A stretch of DNA of 64,000 nt, from assembly GCF_014466985.1 (NCBI RefSeq), contig NZ_AP022826.1:620001-684000 (forward strand). The letters run 5' to 3'. The stretch's first letter is position 1. Each line of letters opens with the position of its first letter. This DNA is from Nitrosophilus labii. Lineage in GTDB: Bacteria; Campylobacterota; Campylobacteria; Campylobacterales; Nitratiruptoraceae. The notes beneath the pieces were generated by a model, which had not been told where the DNA came from, searched no databases, and saw nothing but the letters and a program-made list of their open reading frames with translations. Made by a program: the position numbers and the translations under genes. This document shows positions 4,611 through 28,217 of the stretch, one piece after another.

Positions 4611-4717
4611 AAGTTGCCTTTGTTTACTTAATTTTCCAATGGAATGCTCTGAAAAATTACCAAATTTCACTCAGGTGAGTTAAAATTTTCTATTAAATTT
4701 GTAATTTTGCAGAAATC

Positions 4718-6667
4718 TCAATTTATAATTGATGAATCTTCTTCAACCCTTCTTGTAATTTTCCCTATAATTTTTGTAGTAGCGATATCGGCATCTATAA
4801 TTTCAATGTATAGCTTATCAAAAAGTTCCACATCCACTTTCGGTAGAAATACTCTAGCTCCAGCTATTTCATCTTCAATTACCGCAATAGGTGTAGATTC
4901 CGGATCGGTAACTATAGCAAAAAACTCTTTTTTGATATTTTCTTTAGCCCATCTAGCAAATTTTCTATCCATAAAATCCCACTCTACTTTTGCGGCTTCA
5001 CGCTCTAGTTCACTTATTTTAACCGTTAGTGGTTCAATGTTTCTCATAATGAAATCTAACCGTTTTTTATCGTTTTTTAAGATAGCTTTTAAAAGCCTGT
5101 GAAGCGTAAGATCGGAATACCTTCTAATAGGCGAGGTAAAATGGGTATACGCTTCAAATCCTAGACCGAAATGGCCTATATTTTCAGCCGTATAAGCTGC
5201 CTGTTTTTGCGTTCTTATTAAAAGTTTGTCAACATATTGTTTGATATTTTTTTCACTTGCTTGTTCTTGAATCGATAAAAATAGAGAGTGTAACGATTTG
5301 AACTCTTTTGTAAAAATTCCTATGGTTGCTAGTTCGTTTAAAAGTTCTTCGATTTTTTCTGGACTCGGTTCTTCATGTGTTCTAAAGATTCCGTATTCGA
5401 ACATTTTAGCGGCGGCTTTGTTGGCCAAAAGCATACAATCTTCTATTAAAGCGTGTGAGGGGGTGTCTGTTTCGATATGTGTAGCGAGAAGATTATGGTT
5501 ATCATCTAACTCCATTCTTATTTCAGGATTTGAAAACTCAAATCCTTTTTGAAGCCTTTTTTCTCTTATTTTTGAGGTAAGTTTGTAAAGAGGAAGAAGA
5601 AACTCCAAAATCTCTTTGTCTGTTTCGTCTAAATTATCAAATTTTCCATCTAAAAACTCATCGACTCTGTCATAGCTATATTTTCTTCTAGATTTTATTA
5701 TTGCGTCAAAAAACTCCTCATTTTTGGGTTCTAAATTTTCATCTAGTATTATTTTACACACAAATGCTAGTCTTAAAACGTCTGGTTTTAAAGAGCAAAC
5801 CCCTTCACTTAACGCTTTTGGCAGCATAGGTATTGATTTATGGGGAAAATAGATAGAAAAACCTCTCTCTTTTGCTTCCTTGTCTATATGTCCGTACATT
5901 GTTACATATTCGCTTACATCCGCAATAGCTACATATAGCGTATTCTCTTTTATATCGTAATATATCGCATCGTCATGATCTTTTGCAGTTACAGGATCTA
6001 TAGTGCAAAATGGCAGATGTGAAAGATCTACTCTTTCAGGATAGAGCTCAGGTTCAATGTAGTCAGGATACGCTTTTGCTTCAAGTTCGGCTTCAGCTGA
6101 AAACTCCTCTTTTTTGTTATATAGAGCCAAAGAGATTTTTTCATCAACTTTTGGATCATCCAAAACACCTAAAATTTCAGTAATTATCTGATGTTCATTG
6201 TCTATTTTTGCTACCGTTTTATCAGGGAGTTTTTTTAAAGATTTTTTTGAAGCTTTAACAGCAAGCGGTAGGGCGGTTTTTATATTTAAAAACTGCAGTT
6301 TTTCGGCATCAAAGACTCCTACGCTAAATTTAAATGCTTTTTGGACTATAAAAACTACCTTAGCCGAAGGTCTTCCTTTTGATTTGAAGATCCTTTTTGC
6401 TATGACTAAATCCCCTTTAGCGGCACCATTTAAATGTTCTGGCTCTATCAAAAGATCTTTTGCCTTAATGCCAATTTGCTCTAGATATCCAGTTCCGTTT
6501 CTGGAGATATCTACTTTTCCTACTCTGTATCTGGAGCTGATTTTTAAAACTTTTCCGTCATCTTTTACGATTTTAAGTTTTATAAGTTCGTTTACCAAAG
6601 GCCAGTCACTTCTTGGGACATCTTTTTTCAAAATACCTTTGATAAGTTTTATCATTAATTCTTTCAT
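4718..6667 (-). CDS. rnr: Ribonuclease R (VacB/RNB family)
   Basis: A 649-residue 3'-5' exoribonuclease that degrades structured RNA. The RNB core contains the metal-binding motif 'DPVTAKDHDDAIYY' (about residues 224-237), followed by 'LYVAIADVSEYV', and 'HFTSPIRRYSDLTLHR' near 515, all typical. N-terminal OB-type domains and a C-terminal S1-like segment flank it. The common Phe of the DxxDxDD motif is His here. A Shine-Dalgarno AGGAAA precedes the ATG. holA follows after a gap of about 100 bases. Confidence 0.95.
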   Translation of the reverse strand: MKELMIKLIKGILKKDVPRSDWPLVNELIKLKIVKDDGKVLKISSRYRVGKVDISRNGTGYLEQIGIKAKDLLIEPEHLNGAAKGDLVIAKRIFKSKGRPSAKVVFIVQKAFKFSVGVFDAEKLQFLNIKTALPLAVKASKKSLKKLPDKTVAKIDNEHQIITEILGVLDDPKVDEKISLALYNKKEEFSAEAELEAKAYPDYIEPELYPERVDLSHLPFCTIDPVTAKDHDDAIYYDIKENTLYVAIADVSEYVTMYGHIDKEAKERGFSIYFPHKSIPMLPKALSEGVCSLKPDVLRLAFVCKIILDENLEPKNEEFFDAIIKSRRKYSYDRVDEFLDGKFDNLDETDKEILEFLLPLYKLTSKIREKRLQKGFEFSNPEIRMELDDNHNLLATHIETDTPSHALIEDCMLLANKAAAKMFEYGIFRTHEEPSPEKIEELLNELATIGIFTKEFKSLHSLFLSIQEQASEKNIKQYVDKLLIRTQKQAAYTAENIGHFGLGFEAYTHFTSPIRRYSDLTLHRLLKAILKNDKKRLDFIMRNIEPLTVKISELEREAAKVEWDFMDRKFARWAKENIKKEFFAIVTDPESTPIAVIEDEIAGARVFLPKVDVELFDKLYIEIIDADIATTKIIGKITRRVEEDSSIIN

Positions 6668-24602: not shown

Positions 24603-25742
24603 ATGCAGATTAAGAGAATCTCTTCAAATAGTGATATTGTAAAAATTATGGAAGAATTGAGTGTTGATAAGCCCGGTATTAAAATTATGTCCAAAAAGTC
24701 AGAAATTTATTTTTTTTATATCAAAGATCTTCATATAGGAGCGGCAAATATTTTAAAACAAGACGCTCTCTCTGTTGGAGCGGATCTTGCTTTACCAAAC
24801 GGTGCTATTACTTGCAGTTTCAAAAAGTGCGATGCTTTGCTAATAGGGACTAAAAAACACATAGAGATTTTATCAAGAAAAGAGCTGGCACAGCCATATG
24901 GATTAAAAGAGTTGGCAAGAGAATTAAAACGTTATATCAAAAAGAGTAATTTTGAGCTAAAGATTATGGGTGTAATAAATGCAAATGATGAGAGTTTTTA
25001 TCCTAGAAGCAGATTCAAAGGAGAACGCGCTTTAGAAGCTATAGAAAAGATGATAGAGGATGGAGCCGATATTATAGATATTGGAGGGGTATCCACAAGA
25101 CCAGGAAGTGATGAAGTAGATGAAAATATAGAGTTTGAGAGAGTAAAAGATATAATCGATTTTATCTATAGAACTAGGCTTTTTGAACAAGTCAATTTTA
25201 GTATCGATAGTTACAGACCAAAAATAGTGGAATATGCTTTGGATAGAGGTTTTTCTATCGCAAACGATATTACGGGACTTGAAAATGACGAGATGGCAAA
25301 AGTGGTTGCAAAATATGGAGTAAAAGTTGTTTTAATGCATAAAAAAGGTGAACCTAAAACAATGCAGATTGATCCAAGATATGAAGATGTTGTACTAGAA
25401 GTAGCGGAGTTTTTTAAAAAAAGAATAGAAAAAGCAGAAAAGTTTGGTATAACAAGAGAAAATATCGTTTTAGATCCAGGTATCGGTTTTGGAAAAAGGG
25501 TTGAACATAATCTGGAACTTTTAAAGTGTTTGAGTAATTTTAAAAAATTTGGATGTGAGATTTTGGTAGGGGCAAGCAGGAAATCGATGATAGATAAGAT
25601 AATTCCAACTCCGGTAGAAAAGAGACTTCCAGGAACTCTAGCGATACATCTAAAGGCTTATGAAGAGGGAGCATCTATCATAAGATGTCACGATGTTAAA
25701 GAGCATAGACAGGCTTTTGCCGTATATGAAAGGATGAGATGA
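24603..25742 (+). CDS. folP: Dihydropteroate synthase
   Basis: A 379-residue folate enzyme joining p-aminobenzoate to dihydropterin pyrophosphate. The TIM-barrel core begins near residue 120: 'MGVINANDESFYPRSRF', 'DGADIIDIGGVSTRPGSDEV', 'NDITGL', 'LDPGIGFGK' and 'LVGASRKSMI'. The 115-residue N-terminal extension is longer than in E. coli but usual for this phylum. 'VINANDESFYPRSRF' replaces the usual VTPDSFSDGG wording. The stop overlaps the next start by 4 bases. Confidence 0.94.
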   Translation: MQIKRISSNSDIVKIMEELSVDKPGIKIMSKKSEIYFFYIKDLHIGAANILKQDALSVGADLALPNGAITCSFKKCDALLIGTKKHIEILSRKELAQPYGLKELARELKRYIKKSNFELKIMGVINANDESFYPRSRFKGERALEAIEKMIEDGADIIDIGGVSTRPGSDEVDENIEFERVKDIIDFIYRTRLFEQVNFSIDSYRPKIVEYALDRGFSIANDITGLENDEMAKVVAKYGVKVVLMHKKGEPKTMQIDPRYEDVVLEVAEFFKKRIEKAEKFGITRENIVLDPGIGFGKRVEHNLELLKCLSNFKKFGCEILVGASRKSMIDKIIPTPVEKRLPGTLAIHLKAYEEGASIIRCHDVKEHRQAFAVYERMR

Positions 25743-26899
25743 AAAAAGTTGTTATTAACAAAAAAGCGGCAAAAACTTTGAGAGAGTTTTTTCCTTGGAT
25801 ATATAGAAGCGATATAATCGATCATCAAAAGTTTGAAGCGGGAGAGTTGGTAAAAATAGTTGATGAAGAAGGAAAATCACTAGGAATTGGGTATATCAAT
25901 CTAAATAGTGTTATTTCTATCAGAGTTTTGGATTTTAAAATTCAAAATGTAGATAAAGATTTTTTTATAAAGCGTATTAAAGATGCTTTGCAACAAAGAG
26001 TCGATATATACTCTAACGCTTTTAGAGTGATCCACTCTGAAGCGGATATGCTTCCGGGACTCATAGTTGATAGATATGATGAGTATCTATCTTTGCAGAT
26101 AAATACGGCTGGAATGTTAAGATATAAAGATATTATTTTGGAAGCTTTAGTAGAAGTGTTAAGACCTAAAGGCGTAGTTATCGATGCTGATAGATACAGT
26201 TTGCAAAAGGAAGGGGTAGAGGTCTTTGAGCCTAAAATAGTAGGAAAAGTTCCTAATAATATCATTTTTGAAGAAAATGGCATAAAGTTTAGCGTAGATA
26301 TAACTAGCGGACAAAAGACGGGGTTTTATCTTGACCAAAGAAGAAACAGAGAGATAGTTAGCAGATATATTAAACAAAAATCCAAAGTTTTGGATCTCTT
26401 TTGTAATATCGGCGGGTTTGGACTTTATGCGGCTAAAAAAGCGGATGCTGATGTGGAGCTTGTCGATATCTCTAAAGAGGCGATTGAAAAAGCGAAAAAT
26501 AATTTTAAATTAAATAATGTAGAGGGCAAGTTTGTATGCGAAAATGTTTTTGATTACTTAAGAGTTTTGAGAGCAGGTGTAAAGAAGTATGATATGATTA
26601 TCATTGATCCTCCCTCTTTTGCTAAGAATAAAAACCAAAAAAAGGGAGCTTTAAGAGGCTTTAAAGATTTAATGGTAAATGCTTTGAAAATCGCAGATAA
26701 TCAGGGATATATAGCTATATTTTCTTGCTCATATTATGTATATGAAGAGGATTTGGTGCAAATTGCGCTAAAAGCGTCTAAAGATACGAAAAAGAGACTA
26801 AAAATAGTTGAAGTTCTATACCAAGATATTGATCATCCTTATGTAGTTAATATACCAACTTCCAAATATCTAAAAGGATTTTTGTTTAAGGTTTTATAG
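25739..26899 (+). CDS. RlmI-like class I SAM-dependent rRNA methyltransferase
   Basis: A 386-residue protein with an N-terminal PUA domain ('FPWIYRSDI', 'GELVKIVDEEGKSLGIGYIN') and a C-terminal Rossmann methyltransferase: motif I 'VLDLFCNIGGFGLYAAK', motif IV 'IIIDPPSFAK' and 'SCSYYV'. This is the RlmI/YccW layout, where the enzyme makes m5C in 23S rRNA. The RNA target cannot be confirmed. It overlaps folP by 4 bases and is followed by the long palindrome. Confidence 0.88.
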   Translation: MKKVVINKKAAKTLREFFPWIYRSDIIDHQKFEAGELVKIVDEEGKSLGIGYINLNSVISIRVLDFKIQNVDKDFFIKRIKDALQQRVDIYSNAFRVIHSEADMLPGLIVDRYDEYLSLQINTAGMLRYKDIILEALVEVLRPKGVVIDADRYSLQKEGVEVFEPKIVGKVPNNIIFEENGIKFSVDITSGQKTGFYLDQRRNREIVSRYIKQKSKVLDLFCNIGGFGLYAAKKADADVELVDISKEAIEKAKNNFKLNNVEGKFVCENVFDYLRVLRAGVKKYDMIIIDPPSFAKNKNQKKGALRGFKDLMVNALKIADNQGYIAIFSCSYYVYEEDLVQIALKASKDTKKRLKIVEVLYQDIDHPYVVNIPTSKYLKGFLFKVL

Positions 26900-26905
26900 T
26901 ATTGT

Positions 26906-27203
26906 TAATTGAGTGTTCTAAATAAATAGCAAATTTCGCTCAAGCAAGTTATCATTTTTGCTTTCGGCAACGCTTGAAAATTTTATTAAAAAGTGCGAAC
27001 GGGAGGAGCGTTAAGCCAGCACAAACTGCTTTGCGTTGGTAGCTCCGCACGGCGAGGCGTTTATACAAACTTGCATAGCCTACGCCAGGGGAGCGCCCCT
27101 TCGGGGTTGAGCGCACTTTTTTGCTCTTATGACCAACATAAAATTTTCAAGCTAAAATGACAAAGCTTTCGCTCAATTTCTATTTATTTAGAGGTTTCAA
27201 TTA
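26906..27203. repeat. 298-bp imperfect palindrome with GC-rich structured core
   Basis: The whole 328-base gene-free stretch between the RlmI-like gene and the MBL gene is one nested inverted repeat. Paired blocks, outside to inside: TAATTGA (26906-26912 / 27197-27203), TCTAAATAAATAG (26917-26929 / 27180-27192), GCTTGAAAATTTTAT (26972-26986 / 27138-27152), AAAAAGTGCG (26988-26997 / 27112-27121). The centre, about 27000-27110, is far richer in G and C than the neighbours and has its own hairpins (GGAGC/GCTCC at 27005/27042, GGCGT/ACGCC at 27056/27082, CCCC/GGGG at 27096/27103). No ORF fits it. It could be a mobile-element relic, a structured RNA or a large terminator. Confidence 0.85.
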
Positions 27204-27227: not shown

Positions 27228-28217
27228 TTGGGGCAAAAAACAAGATATCTCTTAAACGAAAGATTAGAGACTATAAAATCAGATTTTAGAGGAGTTCCGT
27301 ATAAAAAAGGCAAATTTACCGGTGAATTTAGTGCAAGAGAACAAAAAATCTCTGTTAAGGCTAAAAATGTTTTTTCTTTTATAAAAAAGTTTATAAAAAA
27401 AGAGATTAAATTTGAAAAAAGTTCTTTGCCTATTATAAAAGATAGAAGCTTTTTATATGAAAAAGAGAATTTCATTATTTGGCTCGGGCATGCCTCCTTT
27501 TTGATACAATGCTCCCAAAAAAGGTTTTTGACCGATCCTTGTTTTCATACGATGCCTTTGAAAAAAAGGATAACTCCAGCTCCGTATCATATAAGAGAGT
27601 TAGGAGATATAGACTATCTTTTGATATCTCATGGTCATCACGATCATCTTGATTTAAAGAGTATAAAATATGCAAAAACACAGATAAAGATGGCACTATT
27701 ACCTCTTAAGATGGGGCGGCTTTTAAAAAGAGCAAATCCTCATATAAAGTTTCAAGAGGCAAGCTGGTATCAGAAATATGATCTGAAAGAGAGAGATATC
27801 GAGGTTTTTTTTCTCCCCGCACACCATTGGCACAGAAGAAATATTTTTGATTATAACAGAGTATTGTGGGGAAGTTTTTTGATAAAATGTAGAGGTAAAA
27901 ATATCTTTTTTGTGGGAGATAGCGGTTATAATACCCATTTTAGAGAGATAAAAAATATTTTTAAAAAAATAGATATAGTTATAATGCCAATAAATCCTCC
28001 GTATGTCATAAGCGGTAGTCATATGACCCATAAAGAGACTATTAAAGCGATAAAAGATTTGAATCCAGAATTTATCATTCCTATGCACTATGGTACTTTC
28101 AATCTTACTACACAATCTACAAGTGAACTTCTTTCTTGGTTTAAAAATCTAAAAAATCGTGAAGATATTAAGGCAAAACTTATTTTGCCCGACATCGGAG
28201 AAAAAAAAGTTATTTGA
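27228..28217 (+). CDS. MBL-fold metallohydrolase (UlaG/NAPE-PLD-like)
   Basis: A 329-residue cytosolic beta-lactamase-fold hydrolase. The metal motif is 'ISHGHHDHLDLKSI' (HxHxDH); further ligands are His in 'PAHHWHRR', Asp in 'FVGDSGYNTHF' and His in 'PMHYGTFNL'. 'GHASFLIQ' and 'LTDPCF' near the start are typical of the UlaG / NAPE-PLD-like branch, whose members cut phosphodiester or lactone bonds. The substrate is unknown. It has a TTG start with AAAGG upstream, 24 bases after the palindrome. Confidence 0.85.
   Translation: MGQKTRYLLNERLETIKSDFRGVPYKKGKFTGEFSAREQKISVKAKNVFSFIKKFIKKEIKFEKSSLPIIKDRSFLYEKENFIIWLGHASFLIQCSQKRFLTDPCFHTMPLKKRITPAPYHIRELGDIDYLLISHGHHDHLDLKSIKYAKTQIKMALLPLKMGRLLKRANPHIKFQEASWYQKYDLKERDIEVFFLPAHHWHRRNIFDYNRVLWGSFLIKCRGKNIFFVGDSGYNTHFREIKNIFKKIDIVIMPINPPYVISGSHMTHKETIKAIKDLNPEFIIPMHYGTFNLTTQSTSELLSWFKNLKNREDIKAKLILPDIGEKKVI

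Follow-up and report, generated by a model that had tools for sequence, protein, structure and literature searches.

The palindrome and its genomic setting

In the window, i.e. the whole analysed stretch of 64,000 nucleotides of the Nitrosophilus labii genome, a palindrome spanning 26906-27203 fills the intergenic space that separates an rlmI-like gene (25739-26899) from its metallo-hydrolase-like neighbor (27228-28217), both named from reading their translations. The four arm blocks described in the original prediction are all present in nested order: TAATTGA/TCAATTA and the AAATAAATAG block lie inside 27-nt arms (26906-26932/27177-27203) that are 81% complementary, and the GCTTGAAAATTTTAT pair (26972-26986/27138-27152) as well as the AAAAAGTGCG pair (26988-26997/27112-27121) show 100% complementarity. 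The direct copies near both ends, likewise pointed out there, are found as TTTCGCTCAA at 26934 and 27167, and the claim that no gene explains the region is borne out by the lack of any overlapping open reading frame of at least 80 amino acids. The self-complementarity of the palindrome exceeds that of all 425 298-mers sampled in 150-base steps over the whole window. Moreover, a 310-nt stretch folds with a z-score of -6.0 under DNA and -6.1 under RNA parameters, and none of 100 shuffled sequences folded as well. The following features are distinguished in the window:

26907-26910, unstranded: left target-site duplication AATT (AATT overlap at three orthologous empty sites of other copies; AATT at both ends here)
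26911-27198, unstranded: long-form body of the mobile palindrome (20 full genome copies; covariation)
26911-26930, plus strand: left terminal inverted repeat, consensus GARNNYTCTGAAAAATTAC, here GAGTGTTCTAAATAAATAGC (copy alignment, pattern search)
26934-26943, plus strand: left direct repeat TTTCGCTCAA (the G002 orthologue of L101 lost precisely the part between such repeats)
26954-26970, plus strand: region of the left side hairpin, TTTTTGCTTTCGGCAAC, with covariation among family members (helix 4 of the covariation analysis)
26972-26986, plus strand: inner arm, 5' strand, pairing with 27138-27152 (pairing, fold, covariation)
26988-26997, plus strand: tip stem, 5' strand, A5 tract and GTGCG (A5/T6 in nearly all of 40 copies; the remainder of the stem covaries)
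27002-27091, plus strand: nested GC-rich 90-nt module, a GGAGC/GCTCC helix with a AACTGCTT-type loop hairpin followed by a GGCG...CGCC hairpin (lacking in 18 of the 20 N. labii copies; elsewhere alone; covariation)
27092-27110, plus strand: small tip hairpin of the UUCG type, CGCCCCTTCGGGG (retained by most of the medium and long forms in the order)
27112-27121, plus strand: tip stem, 3' strand, with T tract (arm pairing, 40-copy alignment)
27138-27152, plus strand: inner arm, 3' strand (pairing, covariation)
27167-27176, plus strand: right direct repeat TTTCGCTCAA (sequence match)
27179-27198, minus strand: right terminal inverted repeat (copy alignment, pattern search)
27199-27202, unstranded: right target-site duplication AATT (empty sites; AATT at both ends)
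4637-4724, plus strand: miniature, internally deleted copy of the family, 88 bp (61.7 bits)

Copies, insertion and target site

In the 2.09-Mb N. labii genome, the element is present 20 times in full, at about 190-298 bp, and twice as a miniature, of 88 and 66 bp. The full copies occur with three forms of the tip: a short one, a medium one with the CCCCTTCGGGG hairpin, and a long one with an extra GC-rich 90-nt insert, the last being confined in this genome to the window copy and a 98% identical copy at C1:825485. Three sites that are filled in N. labii are empty in sister species (L110 in G003; L099 and L113 in G002), and at all three the flanks overlap by AATT. Hence, the element extends from GARNNYTCTGAAAAATTAC to GTAATTTTTCAGAGNNCTC with a 4-bp AATT duplication, which places its body at 26911-27198 in the window; the duplication is exact only where it is unmutated, and one present-day empty site reads AATC for AATT. 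The ends of the element correspond to GARNNYTCTGAAAAATTA and form imperfect terminal inverted repeats of 19-20 bp, and a pattern search of nine related genomes found paired ends spaced by only about 65-300 bp.

By simple ORF calling, every one of the 20 full copies is intergenic, as against 2758 of the 14264 chromosomal AATT sites (19%). The copies sit near gene ends and occur in both orientations relative to the flanking genes; none of the 20 lies in a gap between convergent genes, where their share of AATT sites would predict 2.3, a difference that is not significant. The element is therefore very probably a mobile, non-autonomous, MITE-like fold-back element inserted at AATT between genes. 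A non-autonomous mobile element or fold-back repeat was, next to a structured RNA, among the readings originally offered, and it proved right with regard to copies (20 full ones in N. labii and many in relatives), strong covariation, and target-site duplication of AATT at the three empty sites. Since the complementarity over the full length exceeds what a transposase would need for recognizing the ends, another function of the fold is possible.

Turnover at orthologous sites

Orthologous sites in the sister species G002 reveal that copies also change after insertion. At the sites corresponding to the window copy, L105 and L112, the same ends enclose a GTGTGAGTGTGGGTG-type palindrome as interior. 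The G002 loci L200, L207 and L359, orthologous to insertions of N. labii, show this arrangement, which suggests either that the interior was replaced or that a single AATT site was hit more than once. The G002 orthologue of L101 has lost its interior by a deletion that runs exactly from one TTTCGCTCAA repeat to the other, so that about 65 bp remain as a miniature; a similar miniature is present in G002 at the site of L098. Given this exact junction, at least one internal deletion had its two ends in the direct repeats noticed at first reading. Copies would accordingly decay by deletion between internal TTTCGCTCAA repeats into miniatures of 65-90 bp.

Conservation of the fold and the nature of the tip

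In an alignment of 24 copies (A1), compensatory changes affect 26 of 67 predicted pairs, a result matched by none of 500 shuffles, and 96% of the cells pair compared with 33-59% when slid. Searching 200 genomes of the order with a covariance model recovered relatives in 34 of them (families f1, f4, f7, f10, f13, f16 and f22). Among 40 order-wide copies, 94% of the pair cells are standard (36-55% when slid) and 60 of the 67 pairs feature two or more Watson-Crick types, in an alignment that was fitted to the covariance model and hence favors the structure. The palindrome represents a family of mobile palindromes that extends over the order and in which the entire fold is conserved, beyond the ends. 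This family accounts for many of the structured intergenic repeats of Campylobacterota genomes that are devoid of an Rfam match, and its persistence is open to testing between harmless termination, the fold as a substrate of transposition, and the head as a functional RNA.

The stem enclosed by the tip tracts AAAAA and TTTTT(T) changes in concert on its two sides (GTGC/GCAC, TTGC/GCAA, TCGC/GCGA, CCGC/GCGG), and the tracts themselves are kept in nearly all of the 40 copies. The tip resembles a two-way intrinsic terminator, and the copies would probably work as one; a terminator pattern scan flagged the tip of one short copy and not that of another, and the window copy, whose tip loop exceeds the size covered by the scan, was unflagged. 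Conceivably, the host keeps the element to terminate transcription from either side in the spaces between genes, an explanation that gains from the conserved A5 and T6 tracts around a covarying stem and from the position of copies close to gene ends. Yet convergent gene pairs, between which such a terminator is expected, flank none of the 20 copies (the shortfall against 2.3 is not significant), and termination has no need for long arms. In addition, sister species can lack the element at a given site, so the host manages without it. On balance, we consider maintenance by the host as a terminator rather unlikely.

A comparable, likewise subordinate probability is attached to the notion that the arms match by strand-switch correction during replication instead of selection for pairing, in which case the element would still be mobile and the covariation functionally meaningless. 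Quasi-palindrome correction is an established process in which both arms change together. On the other hand, asymmetries persist within the palindrome, namely two side hairpins at fixed places, bulges, and the unequal ends GAATGC and GAGACC, all of which correction should erase; they thus count against it.

The nested GC-rich module

The GC-rich centre noted in the original prediction can be refined to a distinct nested module at 27002-27091, hereafter the core, which comprises two hairpins: a GGAGC/GCTCC helix enclosing a hairpin with the conserved AACTGCTT loop, and a GGCG...CGCC hairpin with a bulge. Among 14 sequences, 10 of its 30 pairs covary, and the unpaired motifs CGTnAAG, AACTGCTT and CGCACG are constant. 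It has a distribution of its own: of 200 genomes of the order, 67 carry the core, as do 29 of 70 sampled genera, with up to 14 copies per genome. A phylum-wide sample yielded 45 core-positive genomes out of 298, all from the same order, a restriction that may reflect the make-up of the sample. In G002, G016, G042 and G201 the core lies inside the tip of the same palindrome; elsewhere it occupies the tip of other palindromes, and at some loci it stands alone. Significantly complementary flanks (z of at least 5) surround 15 of 34 tested core loci, own family included. Its occurrence alone, in other palindromes, in tandem and in rRNA spacers marks the core as a module in its own right. A relation to domain V of group II introns was dropped: GAGCCGT and CGCACG recur, yet it is the GGAGC/GCTCC helix that covaries instead.

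Several core loci have peculiar surroundings. In two genomes, the core resides in the spacer of an rRNA operon beside a tRNA-Ala gene (G008 L126 953-1054, minus strand; G006 L128 909-1010, plus strand). Behind it comes another, incomplete copy of the 3' half of tRNA-Ala, which gives the impression of an interrupted tRNA duplicate. At G005 L129 868-1091, two identical tandem cores 126 bp apart precede a hairpin like the second hairpin of the core alone. Another palindromic repeat, GGTAAACCAGCCGTTCGTATG...CATATACGCACGGCT, accompanies several cores (L122, L123, L130). A diverged third core of N. labii itself (G000 C1, L229 12694-12812) is located by a tRNA-like gene and hairpin repeats with GGTACC motifs.

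Two further readings concern the core, and both are judged unlikely, somewhat more so than host-kept termination or strand-switch correction. According to the first, the fold would primarily be a functional RNA, either regulatory or a selfish non-coding RNA, with the head (the tip plus the GC-rich module) as the putative working part and dispersal as a secondary matter. Compensatory changes over the whole body and the core, the constant unpaired motifs and the presence of the core in 29 of 70 genera are in line with such a role; the random orientation to flanking genes, the lack of a clear promoter or an Rfam family, and the absence of the core from most own copies speak against it, and single-stranded DNA could equally keep the structure. 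The second reading, which we hold with similar reserve, regards the core as an independent selfish element, a structured RNA or a single-stranded DNA hairpin, that spreads in Campylobacterota through the loops of other hairpins and through spacers, the order-wide palindromes being its carriers.

Relation to known repeat families

Correia, RUP and ERIC-like elements are examples of MITEs. The element shares with prokaryotic MITEs, which have been reviewed (PMC10969869), its short length (about 190-298 bp, for a usual limit of about 600 bp), the lack of a transposase gene (the window copy contains no ORF of at least 80 amino acids), inverted ends (GARNNYTCTGAAAAATTAC at both termini), a duplicated target (AATT, seen at three empty sites), many intergenic copies (20 full ones in its own genome) and fold-back potential. 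It differs in the covariation of its body across the order, the second module nested in the tip, and the 4-bp target AATT; moreover, a typical MITE has a partner insertion sequence (IS), whereas a search for the ends found none in nine related genomes or in the IS families repeated on the N. labii chromosome.

In BOX, ERIC and Rickettsia palindromic elements (for the last, PMC3733652), internal parts come and go. The present element resembles these modular or palindromic intergenic repeats, but they differ in sequence, size and target site; they are set apart by their descriptions (for ERIC a 127-bp consensus, with size and target unlike those of the element) and by the lack of an Rfam match. 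Against Rfam 15, the window gave no match at gathering or permissive thresholds, and at core loci only the neighboring rRNAs and tRNAs reached gathering scores. Neither the element nor the core matched PLSDB plasmids or INPHARED phages, and pattern scans of IMG/VR returned a single match, a chance one inside a gene, and none for the tip. No description of the element was found in the literature under open licence.

REPs are intergenic palindromes of 20-40 bp with GTAG or CGTC tags, of which the GTAG types are tied to Y1 transposases, and they have been reported in Sulfurovum of the same phylum (PMC3733652). That the element, likewise palindromic, intergenic and dispersed, is of the REP/REPIN type and moved by a Y1 (RAYT) transposase is nonetheless very improbable: it has a 288-bp body with terminal repeats and an AATT duplication in place of a terminal GTAG or CGTC tag, and Y1 transposases (PF01797) are missing from the genome of N. 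labii and from its genus. A chance palindrome or simple terminator, for which nothing speaks beyond the AT-rich arms, is to all intents and purposes ruled out by the copies, the covariation and the fold z of -6.

Proposed mechanism of insertion

For the MITE-like element favored here, the following course is proposed. The element would have inserted at AATT in the short gap between the rlmI-like methyltransferase gene and the metallo-hydrolase-like gene. An enzyme acting in trans, a transposase, probably recognizes the imperfect 19-20 bp ends and would cut AATT with a 4-base stagger, giving rise to the 4-bp duplication; this duplication is observed, whereas the enzyme in trans and the cutting step are inferred. 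Over its whole length, the element is predicted to form one long hairpin that bears two side hairpins and, at its tip, A5/T6 around a covarying stem. Owing to this tip fold, the copies would probably terminate transcription both ways and do little harm between genes. The tip loop holds the GC-rich centre as a second module that is itself repeated.

As to the enzyme, the pattern search of nine related genomes revealed no pairs of element ends at IS length, and in the IS families that are repeated on the N. labii chromosome, the ends differ from those of the element. One such family, IS family B, was considered as a partner and rejected: it starts with GAGACC like the right end of the element, yet the rest differs and its duplication looks 8 bp long where visible. 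The partner IS has possibly been lost or is located elsewhere; hence, the element is termed MITE-like only.

The chromosome of N. labii (G000 C1) itself contains at least five IS families with at least four near-identical copies each, one of them with about eleven (e.g. in L236, 140001-160000), and this abundance of near-identical copies points to recent transposition. Finally, a stretch of 4.7 kb made up of internal repeats that are about 70% alike, possibly a large gene for a repetitive protein, is located at C1:1333894-1338629.
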